Of a stretch of DNA of 36,267 nucleotides, positions 6,986-29,266 are shown piece after piece. Numbering within the stretch: the first letter of the stretch is position 1; every line of letters starts with the position of its first letter. Position numbers and translations under genes: made by a program. The DNA comes from Candidatus Venteria ishoeyi (GTDB lineage Bacteria; Pseudomonadota; Gammaproteobacteria; Beggiatoales; Beggiatoaceae): assembly GCF_030378065.1 (NCBI RefSeq), contig NZ_JAUCGJ010000047.1, positions 1 through 36,267 of the forward strand. Reading direction: 5' to 3'. The notes beneath the pieces are model-generated. The model was given only the letters and a program-made list of their open reading frames with translations. It did no database searches and was not told the DNA's origin.

Positions 6986-7510
6986 TCATGCTCCACCCCA
7001 GCGCACTTCTGTCACTGCCCACCAGGGGCCTTGGCTGTGTCCTAACAACGCAGCCCAATACCAGGCTGACACATCCGTCCACATCTGGCCCTGCTGGTCG
7101 CGGATTTGTTCACGCACATGGATAACTTCCTCGTCCTTTTGTGCCTGAAACGCACCCCATAAACCACCTTGCGGACTTTGGTACAAAGGCTGGTGATTAA
7201 TCACATAAGTGCTGCCGCGATAACAGACTGCCGCTGAATGCAGTTTGCGGCTGGGCGCGTGAATCCAACGTAAAATAATGGCTTGTTCCCCCACTTGAAA
7301 TTTAGCGATACGTCCGGGGAAACCACTGTTAAACAAATGCTCTTGCGCAGATAGCGGCAGGGGCTGTAAAACCTGATTTTGATAAGTATCGGGCCAGCCG
7401 GGGAAAGCTGCTGTACTGGCTTGGGTAACGGCATGTTGTCGGGGCAATGCAGGTAATAAAGCAATGCTCAGGCATAAACCGATAAATAATAATAGTGGCA
7501 GACTTTTCAA
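6986..7510 (-). CDS. EpsI-like exosortase-associated protein
   Basis: The 174-residue protein has one N-terminal membrane anchor or signal segment (about 4-22) and a small extracytoplasmic domain. HSAAVCYRG at 91-99 resembles the HSP-CLPG motif of EpsI proteins that accompany exosortases. EpsI homologues are often fused to or encoded next to the exosortase and are thought to act with it outside the inner membrane. The start codon is TTG, in a TTGA overlap with the stop of the exosortase gene, preceded by GAGGA about nine bases away. This places it last in the three-gene unit. The family link rests on the short motif and the gene context, so an exosortase-system protein of unknown role is the safer wording. 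Confidence 0.65.
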   Translation of the reverse strand: MKSLPLLLFIGLCLSIALLPALPRQHAVTQASTAAFPGWPDTYQNQVLQPLPLSAQEHLFNSGFPGRIAKFQVGEQAIILRWIHAPSRKLHSAAVCYRGSTYVINHQPLYQSPQGGLWGAFQAQKDEEVIHVREQIRDQQGQMWTDVSAWYWAALLGHSQGPWWAVTEVRWGGA

Positions 7511-8334
7511 GGTGTTAAATCCTCGGCAAGTCGGCTGCCTGTATGTTTCTCGCCATACCAGAACAACAGCAAAGCCATCAATATAAAAACAATCACCCCA
7601 ACACCTTCATGCAACCACGGGAAAAAGGCAGGCATTAAGCCCGTTTCCAAATAAAACAGGCTGCTGGCGCGCAACATATTACCCAGCAATACCAAAACCA
7701 GACTTAAACCCAGCAGTAATAAGCTTTGCCGGGTGTTCAGCCGGTAAAAACATATTAATGCGCAGGCCAGATAACTACTGGCCCACAGCATTTTGATACC
7801 GCTGCACGGCGCGTCAATGGCAACGGCATAATGCGCCAGATGCAGATATACGCCATCTTGCCAGACGGGTAAACCGCTTAGTGTGAGCAGGCCGCTGGCA
7901 CCGCTGGCAACCAACCAGCGCAGCGGATAACCAAAATAAAATTGTAGACTGGGAATCACCGGCAGAGCAAGGAACACCAGGCCGAATAAACCCAGGTGCC
8001 AGGGTTTGCCAAAGCGCCATAAGCTCAGGGTGCTGACCACAGATAGCATGGCAAAACCAGCGTGTAGCAATGGAAAACCGGGAAAATACAGTGATACTAA
8101 TAGATACAACAGCATCCATAGGATAGGCCAGAATAACCCCCATTGAGTCTGTTTGTATTTCCTGGTCTGCCCCGTACTAAAAAATAAAGCAGTGGTGAGC
8201 GCCAACAGGCCCCATAAGGCTTCGGGGTCGTTGCCAGCGCGCCCTATATACCACAGCCAGACTGACCAGAACGCGCCCAGTTGCAGGAGAATTAAGCGGA
8301 TAAGTGTCGTCTGCGCCATAACATAAGCAACCAT
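7507..8334 (-). CDS. Exosortase/archaeosortase family transpeptidase
   Basis: This is a polytopic membrane protein of 275 residues with about seven or eight hydrophobic helices. The three exosortase active-site residues are all visible: Cys177 in DAPCSGIKML, Arg222 in GNMLRASSLFYLE and His242 in WLHEGVG. Exosortases cleave C-terminal PEP-CTERM-type signals and transfer the substrate to a cell-envelope acceptor. The gene overlaps the upstream VIT/vWA gene, whose product carries a matching tail, so that protein is the obvious substrate. No clear SD precedes either ATG. The start could be at 8334 or five codons later at 8319, leaving an overlap of 43 or 28 bases. It may be a dedicated, single-substrate exosortase rather than a genome-wide EpsH. 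Confidence 0.88.
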   Translation of the reverse strand: MVAYVMAQTTLIRLILLQLGAFWSVWLWYIGRAGNDPEALWGLLALTTALFFSTGQTRKYKQTQWGLFWPILWMLLYLLVSLYFPGFPLLHAGFAMLSVVSTLSLWRFGKPWHLGLFGLVFLALPVIPSLQFYFGYPLRWLVASGASGLLTLSGLPVWQDGVYLHLAHYAVAIDAPCSGIKMLWASSYLACALICFYRLNTRQSLLLLGLSLVLVLLGNMLRASSLFYLETGLMPAFFPWLHEGVGVIVFILMALLLFWYGEKHTGSRLAEDLTP

Positions 8335-10619
8335 AACAACAACACGATACCCAGCAAAATGACCAGTTCCGGTTCTGGCACTGAAGGCACTTTGGTGGCA
8401 TCCACCGGTTTAAGCTTGGCATCTTCATATTGCTGGGCATTTTCCAGCACCACCGCCCCGGAAATTGGTGTCACCAGTTGGTAAGTGCTGGCTAAAGTCA
8501 GTGCAGCCGAGCCTTTGGGTTGTTCAAGTATGCGTTGATAAGCCCATAAACGCGCCAGATGAAAGCTGCCCTGGATACGATGTTTGGCTGCTGCCGGGGC
8601 TTGTTCCTGCTGCTGCCAAGTCCAGCTTAAGGCGGTTTTATGAGACCAGGTTTGGATAAAATTGCTTAAATCCTGCCTGACATCGCCCCATTGCGCTATC
8701 TTGCGCAGGTTTGTTGCGTGTTTTACCGCACTGAGTAGTTTATTATCCCCAATGCCCATCTGATATTCATACAGATTGACCTGAGTATTTGCCTTTAAGG
8801 CAGTTACCAGACTTTGCGGCGTATTGAGCAGATGCGGAATTGGTCCATGCAGCCACAAGACAGCACCCGTCGGATATTGTTTGGCCCATTTTAATGCCGC
8901 TTCCAGTGCTGCTACATTGTCACGACCACCGATAATATCCAAATCCGCTAACCAATCATCCAGGCCGTCAGCGCTGGATAAATTTTCTGCTATTTGTAAC
9001 TGATCCCCGGCAAAAAAACCACGCAGGTGGATAGTTGAAGGTAATGTTTTCAACGCTTGGCGCAGGCTGGGTAAATAAGATGCCATGCCACCTGAGCCAT
9101 CCACAACTATGGCTAAATGCTGGGGTATGGTGACGGCCTGTTGTTGCAGCTTATGTAACACAAACCGGGTGTTGCCCTGAGTCCGTTCATCTTCTGCCCA
9201 GGCTTGGGTAATAAGCGGATTACGTGGTATTTTTAAGACCTGAATCTGCGCTATGCTGGTGGCAGGGAATGTGGCATTAAGACTGGTTTTTGTGTTTTTA
9301 CTGACCTGCCAGGTTTCCGGTACGCTTGCCATTGCCCGGTCAGTGCTGAGATTAAGTTCAAGCTTGTGCTGCGACAGGAAAAAGTTACGCGCCTGCATAT
9401 AAGGTAAACGTAAGTGGGCTTGACTGGCCTCAGTCACAACCAAGGGTACGCTGATACCGATACGCACTTTCATTTCCTGCTGCGGAGGTACGGGAAAACA
9501 CTGCATTAAAATCTGATCCGGCGCAATGTGTGAGACTAACAGCGGATCACGGTTGCGTTGTACCACTTTCTGATACGCTTGCCGGACTTTCTCACTGCCT
9601 GCAAAAGCTGCCTCACGCGGTTCGCCATTAACCCACAATGTCACCCGTGATACCACTGCGCCAGGGGGCAAATGAATTTCTGCACGGGCTTCCTGATTGC
9701 GGTTGGTCTTGTTTTCAAAAATAAAAGACCATTCCAGATAGGCTTCACCGGCATCCGCATTTACCTTACCAGACATCTTTGTGGTATTGAGTTTTAAGCC
9801 TTTAATACGCCCGCCAATGGTGCTGCTGCCCGCATGTTGATCCCAGTTGCTAAAGCCGCGCGGGCGCATGGTATTGGCGTCAAAGGCTTTACCCGTCACC
9901 CGGAAATACAAGGCCGCACGTTCCTGATAAGACAAGCGGGGCGCGCTGTGCGATACCCAACCCAGTGGATCAATGGCGAGACCATCCATCATGGAAACCG
10001 GATTAAGCAATTTATCCGCGCCCATGTGACGTAATAGAGCAATGCTTCTGGCACGTTGCGCATCCGAACTGGAAAGAGACACTGCTTGTTTTACATGATA
10101 TTGCGTCCACCAGGTCGGCGCATACAAGCCTGCATAAATCAACAACACCAGCACCAGACCCAAACGCAAACCGGGTAAGGTCCACCCGGATTTAATGCCT
10201 TGGTGCTGGCGTAAGGTCTTAACGCAGAGCAATGTTGTCCATAAACCAAAAAGTGGTGCAAGTACCAGAAAACCAATGCCATAAAAAAGAATTGCAATGA
10301 CCCCAAACGGCATAATAGGAAGAAAGGTAATGCTATAAAGCAGGCAGGAGCCTAAGCTGATACCCAGCAACATGCTTAAGTTACGCAACTGATTGGGCGA
10401 GATAATAAGCTCAGGTTTTTTCATTTCCAGCGCCATCACCAGGAGGTTGGCAAACGGCACACAGGCAATCAGCGCAATATGAATAAAATAGCGCCAGGAA
10501 TCCAGTTGATTATAGGTCAGTACTTGCCAATGCCTGTCCATGAGCAAAGCAATAATTGGCAATAATATGCCGAACAGAGAAATAAAAAATACAGAAAACT
10601 GCTTTTTCTTAGTTGTCAT
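8292..10619 (-). CDS. VIT/vWA-domain membrane protein with PEP-CTERM-like tail
   Basis: I chose the ATG at 10619 because GGAG lies seven bases upstream. The longer frame to 10691 would be translated through a palindromic repeat. The 775-residue product has about five N-terminal membrane helices (to about residue 170), a VIT domain (about 260-395), and a von Willebrand A domain (about 500-660) whose MIDAS begins VVDGSGGM, a departure from DxSxS. Its C-terminus has a VPEPE motif, a hydrophobic helix and a basic end (WRRRH). That tail is an exosortase recognition signal of the PEP-CTERM type. Similar VIT proteins paired with their own exosortase are known in the XrtN and XrtK systems. The likely role is a large envelope protein anchored or processed by the adjacent exosortase; its function is unknown. 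Confidence 0.82.
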   Translation of the reverse strand: MTTKKKQFSVFFISLFGILLPIIALLMDRHWQVLTYNQLDSWRYFIHIALIACVPFANLLVMALEMKKPELIISPNQLRNLSMLLGISLGSCLLYSITFLPIMPFGVIAILFYGIGFLVLAPLFGLWTTLLCVKTLRQHQGIKSGWTLPGLRLGLVLVLLIYAGLYAPTWWTQYHVKQAVSLSSSDAQRARSIALLRHMGADKLLNPVSMMDGLAIDPLGWVSHSAPRLSYQERAALYFRVTGKAFDANTMRPRGFSNWDQHAGSSTIGGRIKGLKLNTTKMSGKVNADAGEAYLEWSFIFENKTNRNQEARAEIHLPPGAVVSRVTLWVNGEPREAAFAGSEKVRQAYQKVVQRNRDPLLVSHIAPDQILMQCFPVPPQQEMKVRIGISVPLVVTEASQAHLRLPYMQARNFFLSQHKLELNLSTDRAMASVPETWQVSKNTKTSLNATFPATSIAQIQVLKIPRNPLITQAWAEDERTQGNTRFVLHKLQQQAVTIPQHLAIVVDGSGGMASYLPSLRQALKTLPSTIHLRGFFAGDQLQIAENLSSADGLDDWLADLDIIGGRDNVAALEAALKWAKQYPTGAVLWLHGPIPHLLNTPQSLVTALKANTQVNLYEYQMGIGDNKLLSAVKHATNLRKIAQWGDVRQDLSNFIQTWSHKTALSWTWQQQEQAPAAAKHRIQGSFHLARLWAYQRILEQPKGSAALTLASTYQLVTPISGAVVLENAQQYEDAKLKPVDATKVPSVPEPELVILLGIVLLLWLLMLWRRRHLSA

Positions 10620-10639: not shown

Positions 10640-10673
10640 AGACCTGACAGGTTTTTAAAAACCTCTCAGGTCT
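10640..10673. repeat. 34-bp near-perfect palindrome
   Basis: The arms AGACCTGACAGGTTTTT and AAAAACCTCTCAGGTCT are reverse complements apart from one position. The palindrome lies between the RND pump gene and the VIT gene, 21 bases before the chosen VIT start. It could form a strong hairpin in the transcript. It resembles small mobile palindromic (REP-like) units more than an operator, but it could also attenuate read-through from the pump gene. Confidence 0.75.
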
Positions 10674-10730
10674 TCGCTTTGGTAACGCCATTCGAAGCTA
10701 ATTTTCAAAGTCGTGATAGGCGCAAGCATT

Positions 10731-13700
10731 TTATTTCTCATTATCCTCCGCTTCCGGGCAAAAGGAATCACGGGCAGTAATACAACCCAGCGGCACCACC
10801 AGCAAGGTCAGTGAAGTGGCGACAATCGGCCCGAATAGCAAAGAAATTGCCATGCCTTGAAAAATGGGATCAAATAAAATTGCAAATGCACCTGCCATCA
10901 TCGTCAAATCCGTTACCCAGATGGGCCGCATACGAATTTGTCCAGCTTTAATCACGGCTTTTTTCACTGGCGTGCCGCGATAGATTTCATTTTTAGCAAA
11001 ATCCACCAGTAATATGGAATTACGCACTTCGATACCCGCCAGAGCGATAAAACCAATCATTGAAGTAGCGGTGAATTCGGCATCCAGCAGCCAGTGACCG
11101 GGGATAATGCCAATCAACGTCAGTGGAATCGGGGCCATGATAATCGCAGGCTGAATAAAGTTACGAAACTCCAGCACTAATAAGGCATAAATCAGCACCA
11201 GCGCAGCGGCAAAAGCCAGCCCCATATCACGGAAGGTTTCATAAGTTACCACCCATTCGCCACTCCATTCAAACGCACTCTGGTTATTATCTGGCGGTGG
11301 CCCGGTGAGTGTGCCGGATATACCCTGGATTTCATCAGGCGTTTGATAGGTTTTCAGTTTTTCCTCCACCGCTAACATGCCGTAAATCGGCGCACCCAGA
11401 CGGCCTTCCATTTCACCGATTACATATTCCACCGGACGCAGGTCTTTATGATAAATCACTGCATCTTCCGGGCGCGGCATAAAGTGTCCCAGTTCCGATA
11501 AGGGCACGGTCTCGCCATTGGTGGCGGGAATGGGCAGGCTGCCGATGCGGCTCAGTTGTCCACGCAAACCCAGCGGCACCTGAATCACCAGATATACCGG
11601 CTCCTGGGTTACGCCGCGTTTAATATCACCGAGCTGATAACCGCCCATTGCCATCGCAATATTGCGGTTAATCGTTTCCACGGAAATACCCCGGCGCACG
11701 GCTTTTTCAATATCCACCTCAAAATGCCAAATGTCGTGTGGAGCCTGCATATAATCATCCACATCCACCAGATTGGGCACCTGCTCAAATATGCCCACCA
11801 TATCCTGCGCCACCTGACGGCGGGTTTTGTCATCAGGGCCGTAAATTTCAGCAACCATGGTTTGTAATACGGGCGGCCCCGGCGGCATTTCTACCACGGC
11901 AATGCGCGCCTGGGTATCGGCAATCAAGTCTTGTAATTGCGCGCGCGCTACTGCTGCAATTTTGTGGCTGCTGCGCGCGCGTTCGTCTTTATCTTGCAAC
12001 ATCACTTGTATATCGGCGTGCCAGGCTTCACCGCGCTGGTAATAATGCCGCACCATGCCATTAAAATTAAACGGCGAGGCGGTGCCGACATAGGTTTGCA
12101 GCGCAGTGACCTCAGGAATTTCCCGCAGCTTGCGCGCCAGTTTGTGCGTCAGATTGGCTGTCACCGACAAGGCCGTGCCTTCCGGCATATTAATCAGCAC
12201 GTTAAATTCCGGTTTATTATCAAACGGCAGCATTTTGACGGTGACGGCCTGGGTATAAAACATCACGCAGGCCAGGAAAAAACTGACTACAATCAGGATT
12301 AAAAAAATCCAGCCGTGCAGACGCCGCCGTACCAAAGGCACAATCAAGGGGCGATAAAACTTACCAATTTTTTTCTGAATCTTTTGCTCATGTTGCTCAG
12401 CATGATACAAGGCCTGTAATTTCGGGCGCAGGCGCATGGAAAACCAGGGTGTGAATACAAATGCAGCTAACAGGGAAAATACCATCGCCACCGAGCCTAA
12501 CAAAGGAATTGGCAACATGTATGGCCCCATCATGCCGCTGACAAACCCCATAGGCAGCAAGGCGGCGAGCACGGTTAAGGTGGCGATAATGGTGGGGTTG
12601 CCGACTTCGCGCACGGCATCCACCGCCGTGGCGCGGTCGGTTTTACCTTCCTGCAACCAGCGCCGGAAAATGTTTTCTACCACTACTGTGGCATCATCCA
12701 CCAGAATGCCGATGGCAAAAATCAGTGCAAACAAACTGACGCGGTTAATGGTGTAGCCCAGCACCCAGGTACACCAGATGGTAATTAAAATGACCACGGG
12801 AATCACAATAATCACCACCAGCGCCGGACGCCCGCCAATTGTAATCCAGCACAGCAGACTCACGGCAAATGCCGCGCCCAGCAAGGCTGCCAGCAATTCA
12901 TTGACCTTATCATTGGCGGTTTTGCCATAATCACGGGTGACGTGAACTTGCACATTCGCGGGAATCAAACGGCCTTTTAAGGATTCCACCTTATCCAGTA
13001 GATCACGCGCCACCCGCACCCCGTTACTGCCTTCTTTTTTAGCAATGGCAATGGTCACAGCCGCTGCGCCATCGGCAATTTCCAGCCCGTCAGCAAGCTG
13101 GTGTGACTGTCCCGTGAAAAATGAGACCATTTGCGTGGTTTCCGCAGGCCCATCCATAACCTTGGCGACATCACGCACATACACCGGCACCCCGCGATGG
13201 GTGCCTATCACCAAATTTTTGACGGCTTGTGCATTACGTAAAAAAGTACCGGTAGTGACCTTAAACACCTGGTTGCCGCTCTCCAGACTGCCTGCACCTT
13301 GTTCATTATTGGCGCTGCGTATGGTCTGGGCGATTTGATCCAAACCGATGCCAAACCCGGTTAAACGCGCTGGCAACACTTCAATACGAACCTGGCGCTG
13401 ATGCCCCCCCACCACAAAACCCGCACCAGTATTAGGCACTTCTTTTAAACGATGCAACAGATTATGCGCCAAGGTGCGTAGCGCCATATCCTGAATTTGC
13501 TGCGACCATAAGGTCAAGGTGACAACTGGTACATCATCAATGCCTTTGGGTTTCACTAGCGGCATGGATACGCCGGGCGGCATTTTATCGAGATTGGACT
13601 GGAGCTTGTCATGGACTTTAACGATGGAAGGGCGCAGTGCTTCACCCACCACAAAGCGCACCGTCACCATGCCCTGCTCACGCTGTGAGGCTGAATACAC

Positions 13701-14027
13701 ATGTTTAACGCCGGGAATTTCACTCATCAAACGTTCTAGCGGCTCCACTGCCAGACTGTTTACCTGCTCAGCAGAAGCCCCCGGATATTGCAATAAAATA
13801 TCAATCATCGGTACAGAAATTTCCGGGTCTTCCTGACGCGGGGTAAACAGCAGGCCGATCATGCCGATAAACAGGGTGGTCAACAATAACAACGGAGAAA
13901 GTGGTGAGTCGATAAAAAAATCTGCAACTGCGCCCGCCATGCCTAGCGGTACTTTCTGTACGGGGGGAATAGGCGGGTGTGACAGTGCCGGACGGCGGGA
14001 TTCATGGTGGCTGGGTTTATCTGTCAT
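10731..14027 (-). CDS. RND-family efflux permease (HAE1/AcrB-like)
   Basis: The 1098-residue inner-membrane protein has RND architecture: a first helix near 50, a large periplasmic loop, a helix bundle, a second periplasmic loop, and a final bundle. The helix-4 proton relay pair is present in ILVDDATVVVENIF at about 443-446, and the early periplasmic PGASAEQVNSLAVEPLE motif is conserved. It should use the proton gradient to pump substrates from the periplasm with an adaptor (MFP) and an outer-membrane channel. Neither partner is adjacent: upstream is a divergent ABC gene and downstream the VIT gene. AGGGGA stands six bases before the ATG. The N-terminus has an unusually long soluble stretch of about 40 residues rich in Pro and His. 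The substrate cannot be inferred. Confidence 0.88.
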   Translation of the reverse strand: MTDKPSHHESRRPALSHPPIPPVQKVPLGMAGAVADFFIDSPLSPLLLLTTLFIGMIGLLFTPRQEDPEISVPMIDILLQYPGASAEQVNSLAVEPLERLMSEIPGVKHVYSASQREQGMVTVRFVVGEALRPSIVKVHDKLQSNLDKMPPGVSMPLVKPKGIDDVPVVTLTLWSQQIQDMALRTLAHNLLHRLKEVPNTGAGFVVGGHQRQVRIEVLPARLTGFGIGLDQIAQTIRSANNEQGAGSLESGNQVFKVTTGTFLRNAQAVKNLVIGTHRGVPVYVRDVAKVMDGPAETTQMVSFFTGQSHQLADGLEIADGAAAVTIAIAKKEGSNGVRVARDLLDKVESLKGRLIPANVQVHVTRDYGKTANDKVNELLAALLGAAFAVSLLCWITIGGRPALVVIIVIPVVILITIWCTWVLGYTINRVSLFALIFAIGILVDDATVVVENIFRRWLQEGKTDRATAVDAVREVGNPTIIATLTVLAALLPMGFVSGMMGPYMLPIPLLGSVAMVFSLLAAFVFTPWFSMRLRPKLQALYHAEQHEQKIQKKIGKFYRPLIVPLVRRRLHGWIFLILIVVSFFLACVMFYTQAVTVKMLPFDNKPEFNVLINMPEGTALSVTANLTHKLARKLREIPEVTALQTYVGTASPFNFNGMVRHYYQRGEAWHADIQVMLQDKDERARSSHKIAAVARAQLQDLIADTQARIAVVEMPPGPPVLQTMVAEIYGPDDKTRRQVAQDMVGIFEQVPNLVDVDDYMQAPHDIWHFEVDIEKAVRRGISVETINRNIAMAMGGYQLGDIKRGVTQEPVYLVIQVPLGLRGQLSRIGSLPIPATNGETVPLSELGHFMPRPEDAVIYHKDLRPVEYVIGEMEGRLGAPIYGMLAVEEKLKTYQTPDEIQGISGTLTGPPPDNNQSAFEWSGEWVVTYETFRDMGLAFAAALVLIYALLVLEFRNFIQPAIIMAPIPLTLIGIIPGHWLLDAEFTATSMIGFIALAGIEVRNSILLVDFAKNEIYRGTPVKKAVIKAGQIRMRPIWVTDLTMMAGAFAILFDPIFQGMAISLLFGPIVATSLTLLVVPLGCITARDSFCPEAEDNEK

Positions 14028-16143: not shown

Positions 16144-17073
16144 TCAGATTGGAGAATCTGTCTGTACCTGGTTACGTCCCTTTTCTTTTGCCTGATACAG
16201 GGCCAGATCTGCCGCCATTAGCAGTTCCTCCAGACTGGCTTTAGGGGTTTCTTGTGAATGCGTTGCCACGCCAATGCTGATGGTCACCATCGGAGCGGTA
16301 TCAGAATACTCGTGAGGTATATTCGCCTCTGCAACCGCTGCCCGTAGCTGCTCTGCCATCTGCATGGTGCCTGGGGCATCTGTGTTCGGCAACAGAGCCA
16401 CAAATTCCTCGCCTCCGTAACGGGCGAAAAAATCTAACGGCCTCCTCAGTTTCTTGTTCATTGCTTCGGTAATGTGTTTCAGGCATTCATCTCCAGCGCC
16501 ATATCCGTAGTTGTCATTGTAGTGCTTGAAATGATCAACATTCATCATCAACACGGGCAAAGGATGCCCACTGCGCAAGGCGTGCTTCCACTCCCGTTGT
16601 AGTTCTTTGTCAAAAGATCGGCGATTGGGGATATTTGTCAGGCTGTCCAGCAGGGAAAGTTTTTCCAGTATCTCGGTCTTGAGCTTGAGGTTCATGTGGT
16701 TTCGTATTCTGACTCGAACAACGGTAGGCTGGAATGGCTTGGAAATGTAATCCACTGCTCCCAGGTTAAAACCATATTCCTCATCTTCGACTGATTTTTT
16801 GACCGTCACAAAAATCACCGGAATATCACGTATCTGCTTATTAGCCTTAAGTCTGCGGCAGACCTCATATCCGTCCATTTCTGGCATGACGATATCCAGC
16901 AAGATTAGATCCGGTGGATTTTTTCCGTATGTGATTTCCAATGCTTTGGCACCGTTGGTTGCCGCCTGAACTTCGTATTCTTTTTGAAGAATATTGGCCA
17001 ATACATGGATATTTTCCGGTTGATCATCAATGATGAGAATGCGACCTGTCTTCTGAGGTTTAATGGTATTCAT
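16144..17073 (-). CDS. Response-regulator diguanylate cyclase (REC-GGDEF)
   Basis: This 309-residue cytoplasmic protein has an N-terminal receiver domain (about 11-127) with acidic pair Asp16/Asp17, phosphoacceptor Asp60 ([13 protein letters not shown]), Thr90 and Lys112. A GGDEF domain follows (about 140-305). The active site reads GGEEF at 220-224, an accepted functional variant. The product-inhibition I-site RxxD (RPLD, 211-214) stands at the proper five-residue spacing. Phosphorylation should drive dimerisation and synthesis of c-di-GMP from GTP. It is the last gene of the kinase operon, begins in an ATGA overlap with the propeller kinase, and has a strong G-rich SD. That makes it the likely output of the three upstream hybrid kinases through their HPt domains. 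Confidence 0.92.
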
Positions 17074-20000
17074 TGCAGTTCCCCCCCTACTTTAGTGGAT
17101 AGTTTCATTAATAAGGAAATTGCGTCATCATATTTGAAATTATTTACATGCTCCCCGAATTCATTTGGTATATTTCCTCCCACGCTATCCCTGAGATAGC
17201 TTACCACGGTGTTCAGTAGCTCCTGATTTACAACTTCATTTTCACGCAGTGCTATGAGGATCGCTTGCATGGCAGCCGCGCCGTGTTCTGGGTTCACTTC
17301 CAGAGTGGCATCAGGAAGCGGGGGCAAATCTGCCAGCCCGGTTTTCACCTCAGCGATGGTTCGCTGCAATTCTTTGCGCATATCGGCGGTTATTTCTGTG
17401 CCATCCTGTAAAGCCTGATAAACAGTAGCAACAACTTCAGACAGATGCACGGCCCCAAAGGTCGCCGCCAATCCTTTGAGTGTATGTATTTTCCGGTATG
17501 TCTCCTCCGTATTCTCTCTGTCCAGGATCTCCATAATGTCAGAAAAGGCACCATCCAGTTGTTCTTTAAAACGCAAGAGCATTCTATGATAAAAATCTGC
17601 GTTATGATTTGCTTGCTCAAGCCCCTTTTGCAGATCAAACCCTTTTAGAGATTCAGGGAGGCGTGAATTCAAGTCGTCAGTCCTGGACTGGATTGTTTTT
17701 CCTTTGCGCTGTAAGTAACGACACATGATGGTGTAGAGTTTACCGCAGTCAATGGGTTTGGCAATATGAGCATTGGCTCCGGCATCGTGTGATTTTGTGC
17801 GATCACTATCCATGACTGCCGCAGATAGGGCAATGATCGGCAGGTCGGCATGTTCCTTGCGGATACGACGGGTTGCTTCAAATCCATCCATCACCGGCAT
17901 CTGTAAATCCATCAAGATTATATCAAACTGTTGTTGGGTGAGCTTGTTCAGAGCTTCCTGACCGTTATTGGCAATCACCACCTCAACACCTGTCTGTGCA
18001 AGCATATTCAGGGCAACATCCTGATTCAGGCGGTTGTCTTCCACCAGCAGAACGGTGTAATCTGCCAGGACAGGGATCTCAACAGCATTTGTCTCAGTAG
18101 ACCAATCTGCTTTTTTTAATTCCGGTGTACCCACAGGAAGGATTAGTTCAAAGAAAAATGTGCTGCCTTCTCCCAACGTGGATTCAACCTCAAGCGTGCC
18201 ACCCATGCGTTCTACCAGCCTGCTGCTGATGACCAGTCCCAGACCGGTGCCACCATATTTTCGAGTGGTGGAGGTATCGGCTTGAGAAAATGCGCAAAAC
18301 AGAGAGTCAATCTGTTCCTTACTCAAGCCAATGCCGGTATCTTGCACCGCAAAACGGATACTGACTGCATCACTCTGTGCCTGTGCTTGTGATGAATTGC
18401 CCTGTACCACAGACAGTTTGACAAACCCTTGTTCCGTAAACTTAATCGCATTACTCAAAAGGTTGGTAAGCACCTGCCCTAACCTGTGGGAGTCGCCAAC
18501 CAGAGTTAGGGGAAGATCGGGAGATAGATAAATAAACAGCTCAATGTGTTGATCCTCAACAGCTGTTCCAAATATGGATTTCATCTGCCCGAGCAGATCA
18601 TTGGTATAAAAATTGTGCAGATCCAGTTCTAGTTTACCGGCCTCAATCTTGGATAAATCCAGTATATCATTGATAACACCAAGAAGCAGATGAGACGAGT
18701 TATGAACTGTATTGATGTACTCTTTTTGTTTATCATTTAGATTTGTTCGCATCAGCATTTGGCTCATGCCGATCACTGCGTTCATGGGCGTGCGAATTTC
18801 ATGACTCATATTGGCGAGGAATTCGCTTTTGGCATGGCTGGCGGCTTCGGCGGTTTTACGGGATTCTTCCGCAATATGGTTTGCCTGCTGTAATTCTATC
18901 GTCCGCTGAGCCACCTGTCTTTCCAATTGATGGTTTCTTTTGTGAACCCTCTGAACTTTTGCACGTACTATCCAGAAGAACAGGATAGCCATCAGTATAA
19001 GCATTGTGCCTCTGAACCATACTGTTTCCCACCAGGGCGGCAGAATCAGAATATTGATCGAATGTCCCTCTTCATTCCACACCCCATTATTATTTGATGC
19101 TTTGACATGAAAGCTGTAACGACCGGGGTCTAAGTTCGTATATGTCACCTTGCAATGTTCGCTATCTGTCTGCGTAAAATCCCGATCAAAGCCTTCCATC
19201 ATATAGGCGTATTGATTTTTACGTGAATTTCTATAGTTCAAAGCAACAAATTCAAGACTGAATGTAGACTGATTATGCCTTAGCGTAATGGATTGAGCGT
19301 GATGAATATGCCTGGCTAACGGAGACTCTTCACCCACCGGAATCGGCTGATTAAACAGTAGAGCATTTGTAAAAACAACCTTTGGAATGTGCGGGTTGTC
19401 AGTAAGTTCATTGGGGTGAAAGATATTGAAGCCGTTTGTGCCTCCAAAAAATAGTTCACCTGCCTCATTTTTATGGGCTGAGTGCATCAGAAAATGATTA
19501 CTTTGTAAGCCATCCCGCTGGTCATAGTTTCTAAATGTTGTCATCTGTGAATTAAACCGTGACAAGCCCTTATCTGTACTGATCCAGAGTTGCCCCTGAT
19601 CATCTTCTGCCATAGCCACAACATGATTAGATGCTAAACCATCCTTCTTGTTGTAGTGTGTAAAGCTCTGAGTATTTTCGTCATATCTATTCAGGCCATC
19701 AGCCGTCCCTATCCAGACAATATTTTGGCTGTCTTCATAGATCATTTGAATCATATTATTACTCAAACTTTTTGGATCATTTCTATTGTAGGTAAAATTG
19801 GTAAACTGTTCGGTTTCCGGGTTAAAACGACTTAATCCAGCTTCAGTCCCTACCCAAACCAAGCCTTTGGAATCGACACTGACCGTCAACGACCAGTTGG
19901 AGACGATTCCATCAGGATTGCTCTCATCATAGTGATAGTGCGTAAATGTTTCCTTGCCAATATCAAATTTATCCAGACCTGACAGATAGTCAGCAATCCA

Positions 20001-21443
20001 GATAACATCTCTTTTCCTGTCCACAACCAGATCATAAATAGCGTGGTTGGAACGCTTATTTGGGTTCTGTGAATCAAATCCATAGCGCACAAATGTTTCC
20101 TGTTCAGGATTAAATTTGTTGAGTCCCGTTCCATGTGTGCCAAACCACATATCCCCGCGTATATCCTGGCTGATAGCCCATATATCATTACCGCTGATAC
20201 TGGTTGGATCATCGGCATCATGCAGGTAATGGGCAAAGCTGCGGCGTGTTTTATCAAGGTGATTAAGCCCGCCATCGGTTCCTATCCACACCGAGCCATT
20301 GCGATCTTGATAGATGCTGCGTACTCTGGAATCACTCAAATCATGGGGATTGTTGGGATCATTCTGGTAGTGCGTGAACTGATGTTCTCCAGGGTCGAAT
20401 TTGTCAATACCGCCAAAGGTAGCTACCCAGATGGTACCAGTGCTGTCTTCCTCAATCCCCATGATAGTATCATTGATAAGACTGTACGGATCTTGAGGAT
20501 CATGCCGATACTGTGTGAATATTTTTGATTCAGGATCAAAACAATTTAATCCGCCTCCAAACGTCCCCAGCCACAGCATCCCATCACCATTTTCATGCAT
20601 CACCGTCACGGTGTTGATACTCAGACTCTGAGGATTTGTAGCATCATGTTGATAGCTGGTAAATGTTTCTGTGTCTGGATGAAACTGGTTTAATCCTGCT
20701 TCCGATGCGATCCAGATACGTTCACGGTTGTCGATGTACACCCCCCATAAATTGTCATGGCTCAGACTGGTGGGGTCGCCATTACTGTGCCTATAACGGG
20801 TAAATGTCTCAGTATTTGGATCAAATCGATTCAAACCACCGCCATAAGTTGATATCCACAATATACCCTGAGCATCTTCACTTACTCTGGAGACCATATT
20901 GTGACTCAAACTATTCAGATTCTGTGGCTCATGATGATAGCGGGTGAAGACTTCTGTCTTTGGATTGAATTTGCTCAAGCCACCAGCAGTGGCTGCCCAT
21001 ACCAGACCTTTTCGGTCTACAAACAGCGACCAGACATTATCACTCCCCAGGCTGCGGGGATCAGCTTTGTCATGATAATAATTACTAAACTTGCCAGAGA
21101 CAGGATCATATTTGCTGATACCATCGCCCCAGGTTGCAATCCACAATACACCGGATGGGTCTTCATCGATCCAATGTGCAAAATTACCGCTTATGCTGTT
21201 CGGTTCTTCTGAATCATGAAAGAACGGTTTTATGTGCATACCGTCATATTGATTGAGACCATGCTTGGTACCGAACCACATAAATCCTTGCATGTCCTGG
21301 ATAACAAACAGTCCTTCATGATGTGAAAGCCCATCCTCAACGGTAATATGACTGAATTTGATCTTATTAACATCTTGAGCATAGACGTTCAGTGGCAACA
21401 CCAGGTGAATCAGCATAGCGATGAACATAATGATGTTCTTCAC
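17070..21443 (-). CDS. Double-propeller hybrid histidine kinase with HPt
   Basis: The 1457-residue membrane sensor starts with a signal peptide (1-22). Fourteen Reg_prop blades (about 30-680, units of the form GxxWIGTxxGLxxFD) form two seven-bladed propellers, followed by a Y_Y_Y domain (about 735-800) and one membrane helix (about 808-827). In the cytoplasm are HisKA with His881 ([10 protein letters not shown]), HATPase (about 985-1105), REC with Asp1179, and HPt with His1320 (KIHTLKG), then a conserved tail. The periplasmic part matches hybrid two-component sensors best known from Bacteroidetes glycan sensing, but here HPt replaces the AraC output domain. The start is GTG, in a GTGA overlap with the upstream kinase, with AGAGGG about seven bases before it. 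The ligand is unknown. Confidence 0.92.
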
Positions 21444-24400
21444 AGTTTTCCCTCTATTTTGGTGGTCAATTCTACTAATAAGGTAACTGCCACGTCATAT
21501 TCAAACTTGTTCACCAGATTCCCGAATTCATCTGCTGCATTTGCGCCCACAGTATCTTTGAGATAGCTAATCACAGTGTTCAGTAGCTCCTGGTTTATAA
21601 CTTCATTTCTACGCAGTGCTACGAGGGTTTCCTGTATGGCAGCCGCGCCCTGTTCCGGTTCCACTTCCAGGGTAATATCAGGAAGCGGGGGCAAATCTGC
21701 CAGTCCGGCTTTCACCTCAGCGATGGCTCGCCGCAATTCTTTGTGCATATCGGTGGTTATTTCTGTGCCATCCTCTAAAGCCTGATAAACAGTAGCAACT
21801 GCTTCAGACAGATGCATGGCCCCAACGGTCGCCGTCAGTCCTTTGAGTGTATGTATTTTCCGGTATGTGTCCTCTGTATTCTCCCCCTCTAAGCGTTCTA
21901 CAATATCTACAAATGTCTCATTCAGTTGTTTAAGAAAACGAAAGAGCATCCTGTGATAAAAATCTGCATTATAATTCACTCGCTCAAGCCCCTTTTGCAG
22001 ATCAAACCCCTTTAAAGATTCTGGGAGGGCAGAGGCTGAAGCCGAATCATCAGTTTTGGATTGAACCACTTTCCCACTACTATGTAAGTAATGGCGCATA
22101 ATAGTGTAGAGTTCATTACAGTCAATAGGCTTGGCAAGATGGGCATTGACTCCTGCCTCGTATGATTTTCTGCGGTCATCGTCCATAACAGCCGCTGATA
22201 AGGCAATAATCGGCGATTTGTAATGATCTTGGCGAATACGACGGGTCGCTTCAAATCCATCCATTACTGGCATCTGCAAATCCATCAAGATTAAGTCAAA
22301 CTCTTGCTTTTTCAGTATTTCCAATGCTTCCTGGCCATTATTGGCGATAACAACTTCAATCCCTGTATCCTCAAGCATATTCAGGGCGACATCCTGATTT
22401 ATGCGGTTGTCTTCTACCAAAAGAACAGTGTAATCCGTCAAAACTGGAATATCTATGTCATTTGTCTTGACTGATATAGCTGTACCCTTGGCTTCGGAGA
22501 CAGCATTAAATAGATCTGAGGCAGTCACGGGCTTGGAAAGAAATGCATCAAATTTAGGACAATCAGTTGGTAGGTCATCCTGTTTATAAGCACTGATAAT
22601 AAACATGGATGTATGGCGTATATCCACTTCGCCAGCTTCCTGCATCTCATCCAGTTTTTTGATCATACTGGGACCATCATATTCTCCGGGCATTTTCCAA
22701 TCCAGCAAAATACAATCAAAGGGTTCACCAGCGTGTTCAGCAGCCTTTATAGCTTCAAGTGCCGCAGTTCCACTCTCGGCTTCTGTCACCACAACCTGTA
22801 CGCTTTCCAGTATATCTCGCAAGATATGGCGTGCTGTGGGATGATCATCAATCACCAGGACAGTGTGCAGTTCCAATGTAGACCAATCTGCTTTTTTTAC
22901 CTCCGGCGTACCCACAGGAAGCTTCAGTTCAAAGAAAAAACTGCTGCCTTCTCCAAGTGTGGACTCAACCTCAAGCGAGCCACCCATGTGTTCTATCAGT
23001 CTGCTGCTGATAACCAGTCCCAAACCAGTGCCACCATATTTTCGAGTAGTGGATGTATCAGCTTGAGAAAATGCATTAAACAATGAGCCAATCTGCTCTT
23101 CACTCAGACCAATGCCAGTATCCTGCACCTCAAAACGGATGCTGACCTTCTCCTGTATCTGTGCTTCAGAAGTATTGACCTGGGTCACGGACAGTTCAAC
23201 AAATCCTTTTTGGGTGAACTTGATCGCATTACTCAACAGATTAGTCAGCACTTGCCCTAAACGGAGGGCATCACCAACCAATGTATGGGGAAGATCAGCC
23301 GCTACATGGAAAAACAGCTCGATCTGCTGATCTCCGGCAGCCGTTCCAAACAGAGATTTCATTTGGGCCAGCAAATCATCTATTTGAAAATTGTGCAGGT
23401 CTAATTCTAGCTTGTTTGCCTCGATCTTAGAGAAATCCAAAATATCGTTAATAATTCCAAGAAGTAGGTGAGACGAGCTATGAACTGTATTAACGTAGTC
23501 TTTCTGTTTGTCATTTAGATCTGTTCGCATCAGCATTTGAGTCATGCCGATCACGGCGTTCATGGGGGTGCGGATTTCATGGCTCATATTGGCAAGAAAT
23601 TCAGTTTTGGCCTGGTTAGCAGTTTCGGCTTCCTTCTTAGCTTGTTGTAATGCCTTCTCCGCCTGCTTGCGAACAGTAATATCACGGCTAATACCGAGGA
23701 TGCCAAGCATCTCACCATTTGGCCCCCAATAAGGTGTTTTCAAAGTATCCAGTAATATTTTTTTGCCATCAGGATATGTGTTCCACTCATCATTGTGACG
23801 TGTTTCACGCCTTTCCAGCATGAGTTTGTCATGTTTTCGGAAAAAGTCAGCAGTTTCTTTATCAAACAGATCATAATCTGTTTTGTTTACAATCTCTTCT
23901 TTGGGTCTACCGAGAAGCTCGGCAAATGGTGGATTACAGCCAAGATAGACTCCATCTGTATCTTTATAGAAAATAATATCAGGTATCGAATCCAACAAGG
24001 AGGAGATTAAACCACTTTGTCGTTTAATCTCTTCTTCTGCCTGCTTGCGAACGGTAATATCACGACTAATACCGAGAATACCAAGTATCTCACCATTTGG
24101 CCCCCAATAAGGCGTTTTCAAAGTATCTATTAATACTTTCTTACCATCAGGGTAGGTGACCCACTCATCATTGTTACGTGTTTCACGCCTTTCCAGCATG
24201 AGTTTGTCATTTTTACGGAATAAGTCAGCAATTTCTTTATCAAACAGCTCATAATCTGTTTTGTTTATAATCTCTTCTTTGGGTCTGCCGATAAGCTCGG
24301 CAAATGGTGGATTACAGCCAAGATAGACGCCATCCATATCTTTATAGAAAATAATATCAGGTATCGAATCCAGCAAGGAGGAGATTAAGCCGCTTTGTCG

Positions 24401-27400
24401 TTTAATCTCCTCTTCTGCCTGCTTGCGCTCCGTAATATCAATGGCGGTAGTAAAATTATACTGCTTGCCCTGTAGTTCAATAATCTCTGCCGATAACAGC
24501 ACATCTATGGGCATACCATCTTTGGTATAAATAATTGCTTCTGCATTATTTAATATTCCCGTTTCTTTCAGCTCGGTTATCGCCTCTTCTCTAAAGTTAG
24601 TATTCATTTGTATCAACTCTGAGGCTCGCTCGCCAATGGTTTCTTGCAGAGTAAAACCAAGTTTGTCACAAAAAGTCTGGTTGACTTCAATGAATTTGCC
24701 GCTTTCTAACTCACTCAAACCGACAATAGCCGGGTTCTTATGAAATGCTTTGACAAATTTTTCTTCAGAAATAGCTAGGGCGGACACATCTTTGCTAACG
24801 CCAAAAAGAGCCTGTTTACCATTCCATATTCCACTTGTTACCCGTGTTTCAACGGGGATCAACTCGCCACTTTTTGTTTGCAGGGGAACAGGACAGTGGA
24901 TATCTTCACCCTGAATCATTTTAGCTACAATATATGCGGCTTCTTGATGGCGGTCTTTGGGGTGTACAAACAACACCGGCTGACCGGTTAGTTCTTCGGT
25001 GGAATAGCCCAGTCGTTTACTGACCGTTTCATTGGAGAGTTTAATATTGCCCTGCTCATCCAGAATAAAGAGAAAGTCATCAACGGTATCGAAAAAGGTG
25101 CGGAAGTTCATTTCACTTTGCTGCAAAGCTTGTTCAGTTTGCCTGCGGTCGGTGATGTCAATTGCAACCCCATCAAAAATATTCTCATTGTTCGATAATC
25201 GGCGTGGAGAAGAATTGAGAAGAAGCCATTTTATTTTTCCTGAAGGAAGTTTGAATCGAACTTCGGATTTGAAAGCCCTCATATTTTCAATAGCTTCATT
25301 CTCTTGTTTGATAACCAAACAAGCATCCTCTTCGGATATTTGTCCGTAAAGCTGCGATACATCTCTCAGGACATCAGCCGCAGGAATTTCATGGACTTTC
25401 TCAACACCTTCGCTAACATAAGTAAAGCGTCTTGTTTGATTATTAACATCTATCAATACCTGATAGACATAACCAGCAGGCAGGTTGTCACTAAGCAAGC
25501 GGAGCCTTTCTTTGCTTTCTCGCAGATCCTCTTCCACCTGCTTGCGCTCGGTTATGTCAATCGCAATTTCCAGCCTGACAAGTCTCCCGTTCGGCCAGCG
25601 TATTGCTTGATCTCTCAATTGATACCAGTGCTGAGTGATAGTATTTTGAAATTCCCATACATATGGCCCTTTAGGTTCCCCATTTGCGTCAAGTAGTCGA
25701 TCATTAGTACAAAAATCGCAAGGTGTCATTTGTCCTTTTTGTACCACACGAAAACATTTCTCACCTATCGCATTTCCAAACAATTCATTAAATGATTTAT
25801 TTGAAAATAATAGCTCATAGGTTTTCATATCTGCCACATAAACGATGGCATCCATTGCATCCATAGCTGTTTGAAAACGAAGGTATTCTGAGTGCAATTG
25901 CCTTTGTGATCGGTTTGCTGCGATAAACAGCCCTAAATCATGGGCAATGCTGCCTAGGAAATTTTGCTCTACCGAACCCCATGTTGTTGCAGATATACAA
26001 TTATCGAAACCGATAAATCCGATAAGTTCTTTCTCTGCCATAATTGGAATCAAAAGAATCGCCTTGATACCCTGTGGTTCAAAAAGTTGTTTCTCATCTG
26101 GAGGAAAATCTTCAATTATCCCACTAATGATATCACCCTGGGTTAATGTTACATACAACCGTTCATACAATTGAATCTTAAAATTTTGAAGTTCGGGATT
26201 ATTGATTTCCGGTGTGATCCCCTCGGCACAATACTCCGCTTTCTGGCTCATTAGAACTTTGCTGTTTTCATCTGTATGAGTGATGAAAATGTATGCTCGG
26301 CTCGCTAACGCAGCAAGACCGATAATATCGACCACCTGATGAAATATATCTTCTGATTCGGATGCAAGCAGAATTTCTTTAATATGATTCAGTGCAGATA
26401 GATAACTTTCTCGCTGGCGTAATTTTTCCTCTGCTTGTTTATGTTCAATAATCTGCCCCAGACGTTCAGCTAGAGCGTTGAGCAATAATTGTTCTTCGTA
26501 TAGGAATGCCTTATTATCACTACTGACCGTCTTCGCTTCTATAATACCCACTTCCAGGCAGCCAAACAGTTGACTGTACACGTGAACATCGGCTGCTTGT
26601 TGCCAAGATGTTACCTGAAAATTCTCAGTTTTGTATTCTTGACCAGCACACACAAGTCTGGCACAGGTAATATCTGGGTCTTGCCAAGAGGGAGGAATAA
26701 TATCAACAACACCTTGTAAAATACTGCTGAGAGAACTATTGGTAGTTTCAAGTAGTTGTGACAACCCATACAGACAATTTAATTCTTTGACCCGTTCGCT
26801 AAGTGCATAGGTTTTCTCCTGTAGTGCCTTCTCCGCCAGCTTGCGTTTGGTAATATCCAAGGTGTATTCTATCATCTGAACTAGCTCACCTGTTTCATTA
26901 AGAATAGGAAAACCATGGATTTCGACTTCTCTTTGATTGCCGTTTTGATCGTGGTGAATATGTTCTATAACAACCGCTTTTTTGGTTTTCTTCAATTCTT
27001 GCAGGGGGCAGCTATGCTCAGTGCTTTGACAGAAAGAAGTCTGTTTATGAGTCATTGCATAACAGGTATTTGCATCAGCACTGCCCAACGCTCGGGCGTG
27101 TGAGTTGGCAAGAACGATGCTGTAGTCATCTGCATTGATGACATAGAAAGGATGATCCAAGGATTCTATGACATTGTTCAAAAATTTATTTTGTCGCCTG
27201 ATTTTTTCCTCACCCTGCTCGCGCTCGGTGATCTCCTTACGCAAATCAATAGTACGCTTTTCGACAAGTTCTTCCAGATGTTCCTGGTATTTTTGTAGTT
27301 CATTCTCAGCCTTTTTGCGTTCGGTGATGTCTTGCACCAATGCCACAAAGTAATCAACAGAGCCATCGTCCTTACGAATAGCATTCGCCGAGATGTCTGC

Positions 27401-29266
27401 ATAGATAATACTGCCATTACAGTGGATAAAACGTTTTTCCAGAGAATAACCATCGATTTCTCCATTTAATACTCGATTAAATTGGGTTGTATCAGCCTCC
27501 ATGTCATCAGGGTGGGTTAGCCCAATCCAGGTTTGCTGCGAAAATTCCTGACGAGAATAACCGAACAGATTGCACAGTGTATCGTTAAACTCAAGCCAAC
27601 CCTTTTCCAGTGACGTAATCGCCATACCCACCAGGCCCAGTTCAAAATATTTTCGAAAACGCTCTTCACTCCCGCGAAACGCCTCCTCTGCGTGCCTGCG
27701 CTCGGTGATGTCAGTGAATACGGTTGCAAATTGACCATGTCGGGGGCAGTAGACAAGCACCTCAAAATACTTACCAATCTCTTGAGAATAATTCTCAATT
27801 CGAGCAGGAATTCCAGTCAAGGCAACCTTGCCGCAGGTATCAATCCAGTAAGATTCTGTTCGGGGTAGAATTTGGAGTACCGTTTTTCCAACGATGTCTG
27901 TTGCCATCAACCCCGTCATCTCTTCAAAAGCCGGGTTTACCTCCAGGAAACGGTAATCATAAGGTTTGTCGGTCTCATCACAAATGATTTCATGCAGAGC
28001 AAAACCATTGAGCATTGTGTTGATCAGTGTGCGATAGCGTTCTTTGCTTTCGTGCAGGGTATCCTCGACCTGCCTGCGCTCGGTAATGTCGGAATGAATA
28101 CCAAGAAAACGTACCGGTTTCTGCCCATCATCCCACTCGACTACTTTGCCCAGAGATCGAATCCACATCCAGCTATCATCTTTACGCTTGAAGCGAAACT
28201 CAACATCATACTGTGGGATTGTTCCAACAAGATATTGCTCAATCGCTTTATGGCAATGCGCTAGATCATCGGGATGAACATGAAGTTCCCATTCCTCAAA
28301 ACAGCTCTTAAATTCCTGCGGTTCATACCCTGCCATTGTGTAATAGCGATCATCAAAAATTATTTTGGAATCCTTCATATACCAATCCCAAATTCCATCA
28401 TTTGCTACCGACATGGCTAGAGCGAGCTGCTCTTCACTCCTGCACAGTTCCTCCGTGTGTTGCTTTAGTTCATAGCGCATCCGGTCGAAGGAAGAAGAGA
28501 GGGATTGTAATTCTTGAGTACCGGAAGACGGAAGCGGGGTTCCCGGATCGCCTGAAGCCATTCGGTCAGCGGCGGCAGTCAGTTCGGTTATGGGGGAAAT
28601 TATGCGGCGCGAAAAAATAAAGGCCACCGGAAAAGTAATACACATAACCACAAACCAGATTGCAAGCGCGGTCAGCAAGGATTGATGAACAAGGGCATCA
28701 TATTCAGCTAACTGAATACTAGCACCGAACATATAAGTGCGACCCTGAGCATCTTTTCGGGGAACAAGGACATGCCTACCTGTCCCCCACTCATTATGAA
28801 AAGAGGAGAAGGCGGGCTTCATTTGTGAACCCATAGCCGGTGCAAAAGCCTGAGGGTCTCGATGAGTCTCAAAAAAAGATGCGCTGGGTGAGGTGACATC
28901 ATTGACATCTGAATGGGTGGCTGAAGTAAAAACCAGGCGATCATCCTCCAGATGCAGAACGCTCCATAGGTACTGAAGACCGAGCCTGCGGCACAGGTCG
29001 TCATTGCGCTCGACAATATGACTGAATTGCTCCTCGGATACCGATGATGAATCGTCTATTTGGTCGTGATAATTCTGCCCCAAAATTTCACGCGACATTT
29101 CCGCTGCCATAAGTAGCTTGCTGTCAGTCGCTTCCATCACATCCGTGGATCGGTAATAAGCCATAATCGCTGCAAAAATGACTGATACCGCAAAGGTATT
29201 TATAATTATGACCATCATCCAGACGAACAGGATACTGCGGGGAGGACTTTTGGGTTTACTATTCAT
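21440..29266 (-). CDS. Giant hybrid histidine kinase, about 10 PAS and 2 GAF domains
   Basis: The 2608-residue sensor has membrane helices at about 13-36 and 197-220 around an extracytoplasmic domain, then HAMP (to about 272). Four PAS domains follow (about 278-808), then two GAF domains (about 835-945 and 965-1120) and six more PAS (about 1128-1868). The last two PAS are a near-identical tandem duplication. The transmitter has His1896, HATPase (about 2000-2115), REC1 with Asp2189, REC2 with Asp2329 and HPt with His2472. PAS4 and PAS5 carry clustered cysteines. It should integrate many redox, ligand or light-type signals into one phosphorelay. Its ATG overlaps the stop of the broken diguanylate cyclase by ATGA, with AAGGA about ten bases upstream. 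Confidence 0.92.
23657..24412 (-). repeat. Tandem in-frame duplication of a PAS-coding unit (2 x 378 bp)
   Basis: Two adjacent 126-codon units (residues 1619-1744 and 1745-1870 of the 2608-residue kinase) encode almost the same PAS domain plus linker. They share [14 protein letters not shown], the [13 protein letters not shown] pocket region and [11 protein letters not shown]. Differences are scattered conservative substitutions such as M/T, I/L and N/H. The unit boundary falls in the coiled linker between PAS domains, consistent with unequal crossing-over that keeps the heptad phase. Confidence 0.92.

Follow-up and report, generated by a model that had tools for sequence, protein, structure and literature searches.

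A stretch of 36,267 nucleotides from Candidatus Venteria ishoeyi, a gammaproteobacterium of the Beggiatoaceae (contig NZ_JAUCGJ010000047.1, positions 1 to 36,267, hereafter the window), carries a three-gene module on its minus strand at 6986-10619, in which genes for a VIT/vWA membrane protein, an exosortase and an EpsI-like protein overlap end to end (Table 1). Genome-wide counts, an exosortase tree and the features of the VIT/vWA protein point to a dedicated exosortase system of the XrtQ branch, in which one enzyme would serve one substrate. We give this reading, including the mechanism proposed for it below, a probability of about 0.68.

Gene content of the module and genome-wide counts

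The initial annotation of the window, made from the sequence alone, described a self-contained exosortase module with its own VIT substrate, and the three genes and their coordinates were confirmed by an open reading frame (ORF) check. The likely start of the VIT gene is the ATG at 10619, preceded a few bases upstream by GGAGA and giving a protein of 775 residues; an alternative upstream ATG at 10691 would give 799. The VIT stop and the exosortase start (ATG at 8334) overlap by 43 nt, and the exosortase stop overlaps the TTG start of the EpsI-like gene by 4 nt. If each gene is given its earliest possible start, loci L006, L055 and L031 show similar overlaps, and L030 does so between VIT and exosortase, in contrast to L059, where a gap of 336 nt is present. 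Promoter and terminator scans gave counts within the range of shuffled sequence (9 vs 10.7 and 13 vs 10.6, respectively).

Profile searches of the assembly identify one exosortase and one VIT domain over cut-off. A single tail exceeds the cut-off of the PEP-CTERM profile TIGR02595, namely that of the VIT protein itself (21.0 bits in a six-frame search, cut-off 16), and only three hits in all are obtained at E-values up to 10; the next two lie inside a 444-residue membrane protein read as an anion permease (13.8 bits) and in a 32-residue frame (11.3 bits). The abundance of other PEP-CTERM proteins that the initial annotation had named as the finding contrary to a private pair is not seen at the sensitivity of this profile. 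A Desulfomonile genome with the same module (G369) also has one exosortase and one tail. Seven further module or XrtQ genomes (G159, G301, G311 and G370 to G373) have two exosortases each, one belonging to the module/XrtQ branch described below and one outside it. At E-values up to 1, own VIT tails included, two tail hits are found in the window genome and one in G369, against 12 in G159, 5 in G301, 6 in G311, 8 in G370, 9 in G371, 5 in G372 and 4 in G373. Eight genomes reached via loci with a lone VIT gene (G374 to G381) have one to six exosortases and 12 to 94 tail hits at this level, and G382 has neither exosortase nor tail hit. Some of the hits counted may be noise, given that 7 of 14 control genomes have hits at E-values up to 1, with tails over cut-off in 2.

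The second exosortases were assigned to XrtD in G159 (568.8 bits) and G311 (588.0 bits, cut-off 400) and to XrtA in G301 (218.5 bits, cut-off 208), while those of G370 and G372 score below any Xrt subtype cut-off; this scoring covered these five of the seven genomes. The term generalist, where applied to these enzymes, is a label only. It is possible, though unlikely, that the window exosortase is itself a generalist that lies beside one substrate and also serves proteins with tails that PEP-CTERM profiles do not recognise. Short profiles do overlook divergent tails, as seen in the failure of PF07589 to detect the window's own VIT tail; however, the scarcity of tail hits in the genome, the second exosortase present in each of the seven other module or XrtQ genomes that have several tail hits, and an overlap with a single substrate gene that recurs in other loci, speak for the dedicated pair.

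Table 1. Features of the module and its flank, in window coordinates.
Feature	Coordinates	Strand	Basis
VIT/vWA membrane protein, presumed single substrate, 775 aa	8292..10619	minus	PF08487, AlphaFold model vs ITI (inter-alpha-inhibitor) heavy chain 1, full-length relatives
N-terminal membrane domain, residues 1-180, five predicted helices, N-terminus probably inside	10080..10619	minus	hydropathy, model helices, K/R distribution
VIT domain, residues 295-387	9459..9737	minus	PF08487
vWA fold, about residues 495-663; metal site altered family-wide (D507 kept, Thr position replaced, Asp to H591)	8631..9137	minus	alignment and model
C-terminal sorting tail: VPSVPEP, membrane helix, WRRRHLSA	8295..8390	minus	hydropathy, TIGR02595, residue check
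Exosortase of the XrtQ branch, 275 aa	7507..8334	minus	PF09721, NF012182, tree, residues
Exosortase catalytic codons: Cys177, Arg222, His242	7804-7806; 7669-7671; 7609-7611	minus	
EpsI-like protein, 174 aa, N-terminal signal or anchor helix, R-x-L-H-x(4)-C	6986..7510	minus	NF033770, alignment, model
Genome-wide palindromic repeat between RND (resistance-nodulation-division) permease gene and VIT gene; flanking, outside the module	10641..10672	not applicable	

Affinities of the exosortase and the EpsI-like protein

The enzyme belongs to the exosortase superfamily, matching PF09721 with 105.8 bits (cut-off 25.7) and carrying Cys177, Arg222 and His242 exactly where the initial annotation had placed them. 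Among 39 aligned exosortases the Cys is conserved in 38 (one gap), the Arg in 37 (two gaps) and the His in 36 (two gaps, one Glu). Scored against the exosortase subfamilies, as had been recommended, it reaches 123.5 bits for XrtQ (NF012182), far below the cut-off of 270, and the profile scores reject its assignment to XrtN (50.1 bits), XrtK (15.5 bits), XrtO (39.5 bits, cut-off 250) or XrtT (NF033770, 57.8 bits, cut-off 250). Seven other module enzymes are also below the XrtQ cut-off (147.2, 139.5, 173.4, 84.6, 40.0, 151.1 and 151.0 bits). The cut exosortase of L048 was left out of this scoring; L048 is a 3.5-kb contig from a metagenome-assembled genome (MAG) in which PF09721 finds no exosortase, and may be a contaminant closely related to the window's organism.

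A tree of the 39 exosortases places nine module enzymes in one branch of 11 rows (97/95) together with the XrtQ of G311 and an enzyme of Roseibacillus (L119), and holding the module rows and XrtQ together is not rejected (approximately unbiased test, p-AU 0.613). The second exosortases of the module genomes fall outside this branch. Its sister branch is XrtT (L088, L090 and L092, 488-620 bits), with 92/92 for both together; the XrtT enzymes of G384, G389 and G408, described below, are not part of the tree. The enzyme is therefore grouped with XrtQ and not, as first suggested, with XrtN or XrtK. A separate subtype, also raised at that stage, is plausible.

L119 was labelled as general before its neighbours were inspected. 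Both XrtQ of G311 and L119 adjoin a VIT/vWA protein with a PEP tail that is similar to TIGR03788, the marine sortase target family (405.5 and 400.1 bits, respectively, cut-off 551.65), and since these non-module members also have such neighbours, all of the branch sampled here is linked to VIT/vWA proteins. Two layouts occur within it: a vWA domain recognised by Pfam without a five-helix domain, beside XrtQ and L119, and a five-helix domain with a changed vWA site in the module. The XrtQ system of G311 thus shares with the window its exosortase branch, an EpsI-like domain and a neighbouring VIT/vWA protein with a P-E-P tail, but its EpsI-like domain is fused to the exosortase and its partner is of the first layout. 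Proteins close to TIGR03788 yet with a PEP tail and an adjacent exosortase were observed at L097 5466-7532, L139 4509-6503 and L165 2651-4711; these are apparently the same passenger, with a sortase signal swapped for an exosortase signal.

The EpsI-like protein resembles the C-terminal part of XrtT, matching NF033770 with 36.8 bits over profile positions 295-446 (cut-off 250). It gives no match to the EpsI family TIGR02914 (cut-off 42.8) at E-values up to 0.1; the EpsI part of the XrtD and XrtA enzymes of G159, G311 and G301 matches that family with 92.9-152.4 bits. The gene is adjacent or fused to the exosortase gene in 7 of the 9 module loci (it was not found in L063, and L048 is cut), and the R-x-L-H-x(4)-C motif is nearly invariant in 12 rows. 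The structural model is confident (predicted local distance difference test, pLDDT, 90.6), and no Foldseek match below E 0.12 was obtained; a weak, repeated likeness to PsbP, Mog1, DcrB and SciW, among others, has Z-scores of about 5-6, below a safe level, and serves as a lead only. At L066 (4411-6992) a VIT gene is directly followed by an EpsI-like gene, and no exosortase was detected on the contig.

The VIT/vWA protein and the recurrence of the module

The VIT domain is recognised by PF08487 (about 47.2-47.3 bits, cut-off 26.5), and Pfam vWA gives no match in the protein. An AlphaFold model built from a 41-row alignment (pLDDT 89.5) shows, after five long helices at the N-terminus, a VIT region rich in beta structure, then a vWA fold and finally a helix at the C-terminus. 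The best solved structure found by Foldseek is human inter-alpha-inhibitor heavy chain 1, which has the same combination of VIT plus vWA (E 2e-19; Z 16.7 over 426 residues, root-mean-square deviation 7.8), and the rows listed, mostly vWA chains, have Z-scores of 13.8-16.7, as expected of a vWA fold. Heavy chain 1 is not known to have an exosortase or membrane helices.

Basic residues are found in the N-terminal segment, the 2-3 loop, the 4-5 loop and the C-terminal tail, a distribution that fits a topology with an inside N-terminus, a periplasmic VIT-vWA region and a PEP motif exposed on the periplasmic side. Under this predicted topology, the five helices would still hold the protein in the membrane once the tail is removed, consistent with the initial proposal that cleavage leaves it bound at the other end. 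The same annotation regarded the roughly five N-terminal helices as unusual; they are present, but are not peculiar to the window protein. By hydropathy, full-length relatives have several N-terminal helices (mostly three to five, a few fewer), the helix-bearing ones being mainly from Verrucomicrobiota without an adjacent exosortase, and the TIGR02921 partner of XrtO in G420, an integral PEP-CTERM VIT protein split over two frames, has five helices in the first and a further two where the second begins. N-terminal helices are absent from the TIGR03788-like proteins that accompany XrtT and XrtQ.

An altered metal ion-dependent adhesion site (MIDAS) in the vWA fold had also been predicted, from the sequence DGSGG, and is borne out, although the positions affected are mainly those of the later Thr and Asp, and the change is family-wide. 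Among 50 VIT rows of at least 600 residues and at least 240 bits, with positions equated by alignment and motif order, the first Asp (D507, or D531 in the 799-residue frame) is invariant (50/50), the first Ser is kept in 35 of 49 rows and the second in 10 of 48. The Thr position is His in 14 and Gln in 13 of 48 rows, with Thr in only 2, and the Asp adjoining it (D567) persists in 42 of 48. At the later Asp position His is found in 45 of 46 rows (H591 in the window protein), as part of a W[IL]H[GA]xQP motif, and Ser in one. The family thus lacks the full ligand set of Asp-x-Ser-x-Ser, Thr and Asp. Heavy chain 1 has a working metal site and, according to PMC7170535, chelates the metal through Asp298, Ser300, Ser302 and Asp403; by this comparison, the VIT family has given up or re-made a site of this type. 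Loss of these residues, together with a TIGR02595 score near the cut-off, could indicate a decaying pair with a degenerate vWA site, a weak tail and an enzyme no longer needed for function; with all three frames open and overlapping, the catalytic residues kept and D507 and H591 shared across the family, an old design is indicated in place of decay, which we consider very improbable.

The tail pattern of full-length relatives is VPxxPEP, a helix and basic residues. PEP occurs in the last 60 residues of 41 of the 50 VIT rows, 40 of which also have basic residues at the end; several of the nine rows without it have cut frames or lie on cut contigs. The window tail is a borderline PEP-CTERM by score, supported by conservation in relatives.

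The window substrate reaches no NCBIfam family cut-off. It is related to the VIT partners of XrtN (TIGR04477, 108 bits, cut-off 250) and, as had been supposed, to TIGR04286 (MSEP-CTERM, 59.9 bits, cut-off 150), which we take to be the partner of XrtK; the latter match spans residues 30-405 of the 799-residue frame, helices included. The window enzyme is of neither type. The XrtO/TIGR02921 pair of G420 also combines an adjacent exosortase with a VIT protein having N-terminal membrane helices and a PEP tail, but the window protein scores only 28.2 bits against TIGR02921 (cut-off 200). The XrtT systems of G384, G389 and G408 likewise place one exosortase beside one VIT/vWA PEP protein; their partner, however, is without the five-helix domain, and class XrtT is sister to the module/XrtQ branch and not within it. 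In the library searched, no paper joins "exosortase" with "VIT domain", nor at least two of exosortase, XrtN, XrtK, XrtQ, XrtT and XrtO. The substrates of the module make up a five-helix VIT family that has no name yet and is paired with enzymes of its own within the XrtQ branch, the kind of pairing being already known.

The initial comparison with one-enzyme, one-substrate pairs gains from homologous modules found elsewhere. A three-sequence profile search identified 54 VIT loci in named genomes, mostly Verrucomicrobiota, with others in Gammaproteobacteria, Desulfomonile and Desulfonema MAGs, Phycisphaerae, Armatimonadota and a few other groups, and eight loci besides the window carry the module. 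In a class sample, a full-length VIT relative is found in 3 of 369 genomes (the window's, G301 and G159). Within the window's bacterial family, 16 of 42 genomes have an exosortase, and none of the others has a full-length window-type VIT protein, the best reaching 46.2 bits over part of the profile. Other pairs are present in this family: XrtT (560-650 bits, cut-off 250) adjoins a TIGR03788-like VIT/vWA PEP protein in G384, G389 and G408 (469-510 bits, below 551.65), and XrtO (423 bits, cut-off 250) adjoins TIGR02921 in G420 (617 bits, cut-off 200). G407 has a TIGR03788-like VIT protein (478 bits) near a 430-residue exosortase frame, and G413 and G417 look broken. Among its kin the window module is therefore rare, yet one of several parallel solutions. 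Counting the window module, VIT-exosortase pairs of three types are observed in one bacterial family (L164 4510-8802; L165, L166, L167 and L169).

In the VIT tree the rows with an adjacent exosortase group together, needing 3 changes where shuffling gives a mean of 8.5. A tree constrained to keep the seven main module rows as one group, with the long rows L063 and L079 left out, is not rejected and scores higher (p-AU 0.699). This clustering fits inheritance of the module, and both the exosortase and the VIT tree pair L059 (L007) with L055. VIT proteins at other loci may be served by exosortases elsewhere in their genomes. At L079 (5598-13837), three tandem VIT genes precede one exosortase-EpsI fusion.

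Of the neighbouring genes, an RND permease gene at window positions 10731-14027 lies on the same strand, 111 nt upstream of the VIT gene. It was rejected as a module member, as the ORF maps of the eight other module loci show nothing comparably long ahead of the VIT gene (contig ends limit this comparison in L048). No membrane fusion protein was seen among the window neighbours that were scanned. The palindrome between the permease and VIT genes is near-perfect (16 + 16 bases), its half-site occurring 49 times in the genome with at most one mismatch and the reversed control 0 times. Two-component genes with CreB and CreC as their best family matches, below cut-offs, adjoin the module in G301 and G159 (L096 12034-14414 and L059 5271-7714), CreB and CreC above cut-off adjoin XrtQ in G311 (L097 1960-5363), and none adjoins the window module. 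Further along the window (16144-29266), a 1457-residue hybrid sensor kinase with Reg_prop propeller, HisKA, receiver and Hpt domains adjoins a receiver-GGDEF protein and a 2608-residue frame on the same strand.

Proposed processing and its possible meaning

In the mechanism proposed for the dedicated pair, the VIT/vWA protein would insert via its five N-terminal helices with the N-terminus inside and present its VIT-vWA platform to the periplasm, while the VPSVPEP...RRR signal would be carried by a sixth helix at the C-terminus. The exosortase would cut at or near PEP through Cys177, forming a thioester acyl-enzyme with release of the tail, and the thioester may then be resolved by water, an amine, or a lipid or sugar nucleophile. 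An amine or other nucleophile is suggested by the thioester scheme with an amine nucleophile proposed for archaeosortase A in PMC7157517. The EpsI-like protein may act as a periplasmic helper of the exosortase. With five helices remaining after cleavage, the purpose is probably not export; processing would instead free or covalently tether the C-terminal end of an inner-membrane platform, either joining it to an envelope lipid or glycan or switching the platform on through tail release.

A number of observations weigh against this reading. The assembly, at 98.8% completeness and in 115 contigs, is incomplete, and the 24-position tail profile can miss divergent tails, such that the single substrate holds only at that sensitivity. 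The window tail falls below the TIGR02595 cut-off in a whole-protein scan (14.8 bits), and PF07589 finds no tail over its cut-off in the window genome. Two basic residues in the loop between transmembrane helices 1 and 2 and four after helix 5 weaken the predicted topology a little. Module rows L063 and L079 are on long branches, and their place in the exosortase tree is unsure. In the free VIT tree the window row belongs to no starred set, its nearest rows by path include lone Verrucomicrobiota proteins, and a lone VIT protein (L060) sits among the module ones. Among the 34 of 54 VIT loci with flanks of at least 1.5 kb on both sides, only five have an exosortase within 1.5 kb and 29 have none, so substrates of this type can evidently do without a dedicated neighbour in places; L079 was scored as non-adjacent in this count, since its best-scoring VIT gene is not the one adjoining the exosortase. 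Finally, the gene set, the residues, the topology signals, the single enzyme with its single scoring tail and the separate exosortase branch can be read from the sequence, whereas the cut, the nucleophile, the helper role and the biological purpose are inferred.

The exosortase may also act as a protease only, removal of the C-terminal helix being a maturation or assembly switch with no covalent attachment, as five membrane helices stay in place and a new anchor is not needed. This version is improbable in our view, given that archaeosortase A, of the same superfamily, couples cleavage to lipidation according to PMC7157517. A more speculative extension of the dedicated pair, which we hold with little confidence, is a bacterial counterpart of heavy-chain transfer. 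Heavy chain 1 shares the fold and, as described in PMC7170535, loses a C-terminal pro-domain on covalent joining to a polysaccharide chain; by analogy, the exosortase would cut the propeptide and join the new C-terminus to an envelope glycan or lipid while the five-helix root is kept, creating a fixed link between membrane and envelope polymer. If this were true, the recurring association of VIT/vWA proteins with dedicated enzymes (the XrtQ branch, XrtT and XrtO and, by family name, XrtN and marine sortases) would represent one ancient linking function with interchangeable enzymes.

The presence of three exosortase types beside a VIT protein (the XrtQ branch, XrtT and XrtO), with XrtN as a further one by the name of its partner family, raises the question of why this protein so often has a private tail-processing enzyme. 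Exosortases mostly serve several PEP-CTERM proteins, which complicates work on their chemistry. As its genome encodes a single exosortase and a single recognisable substrate, in overlapping genes, the window module would offer a minimal system in which the cleavage site, the nucleophile and the product may be found directly.

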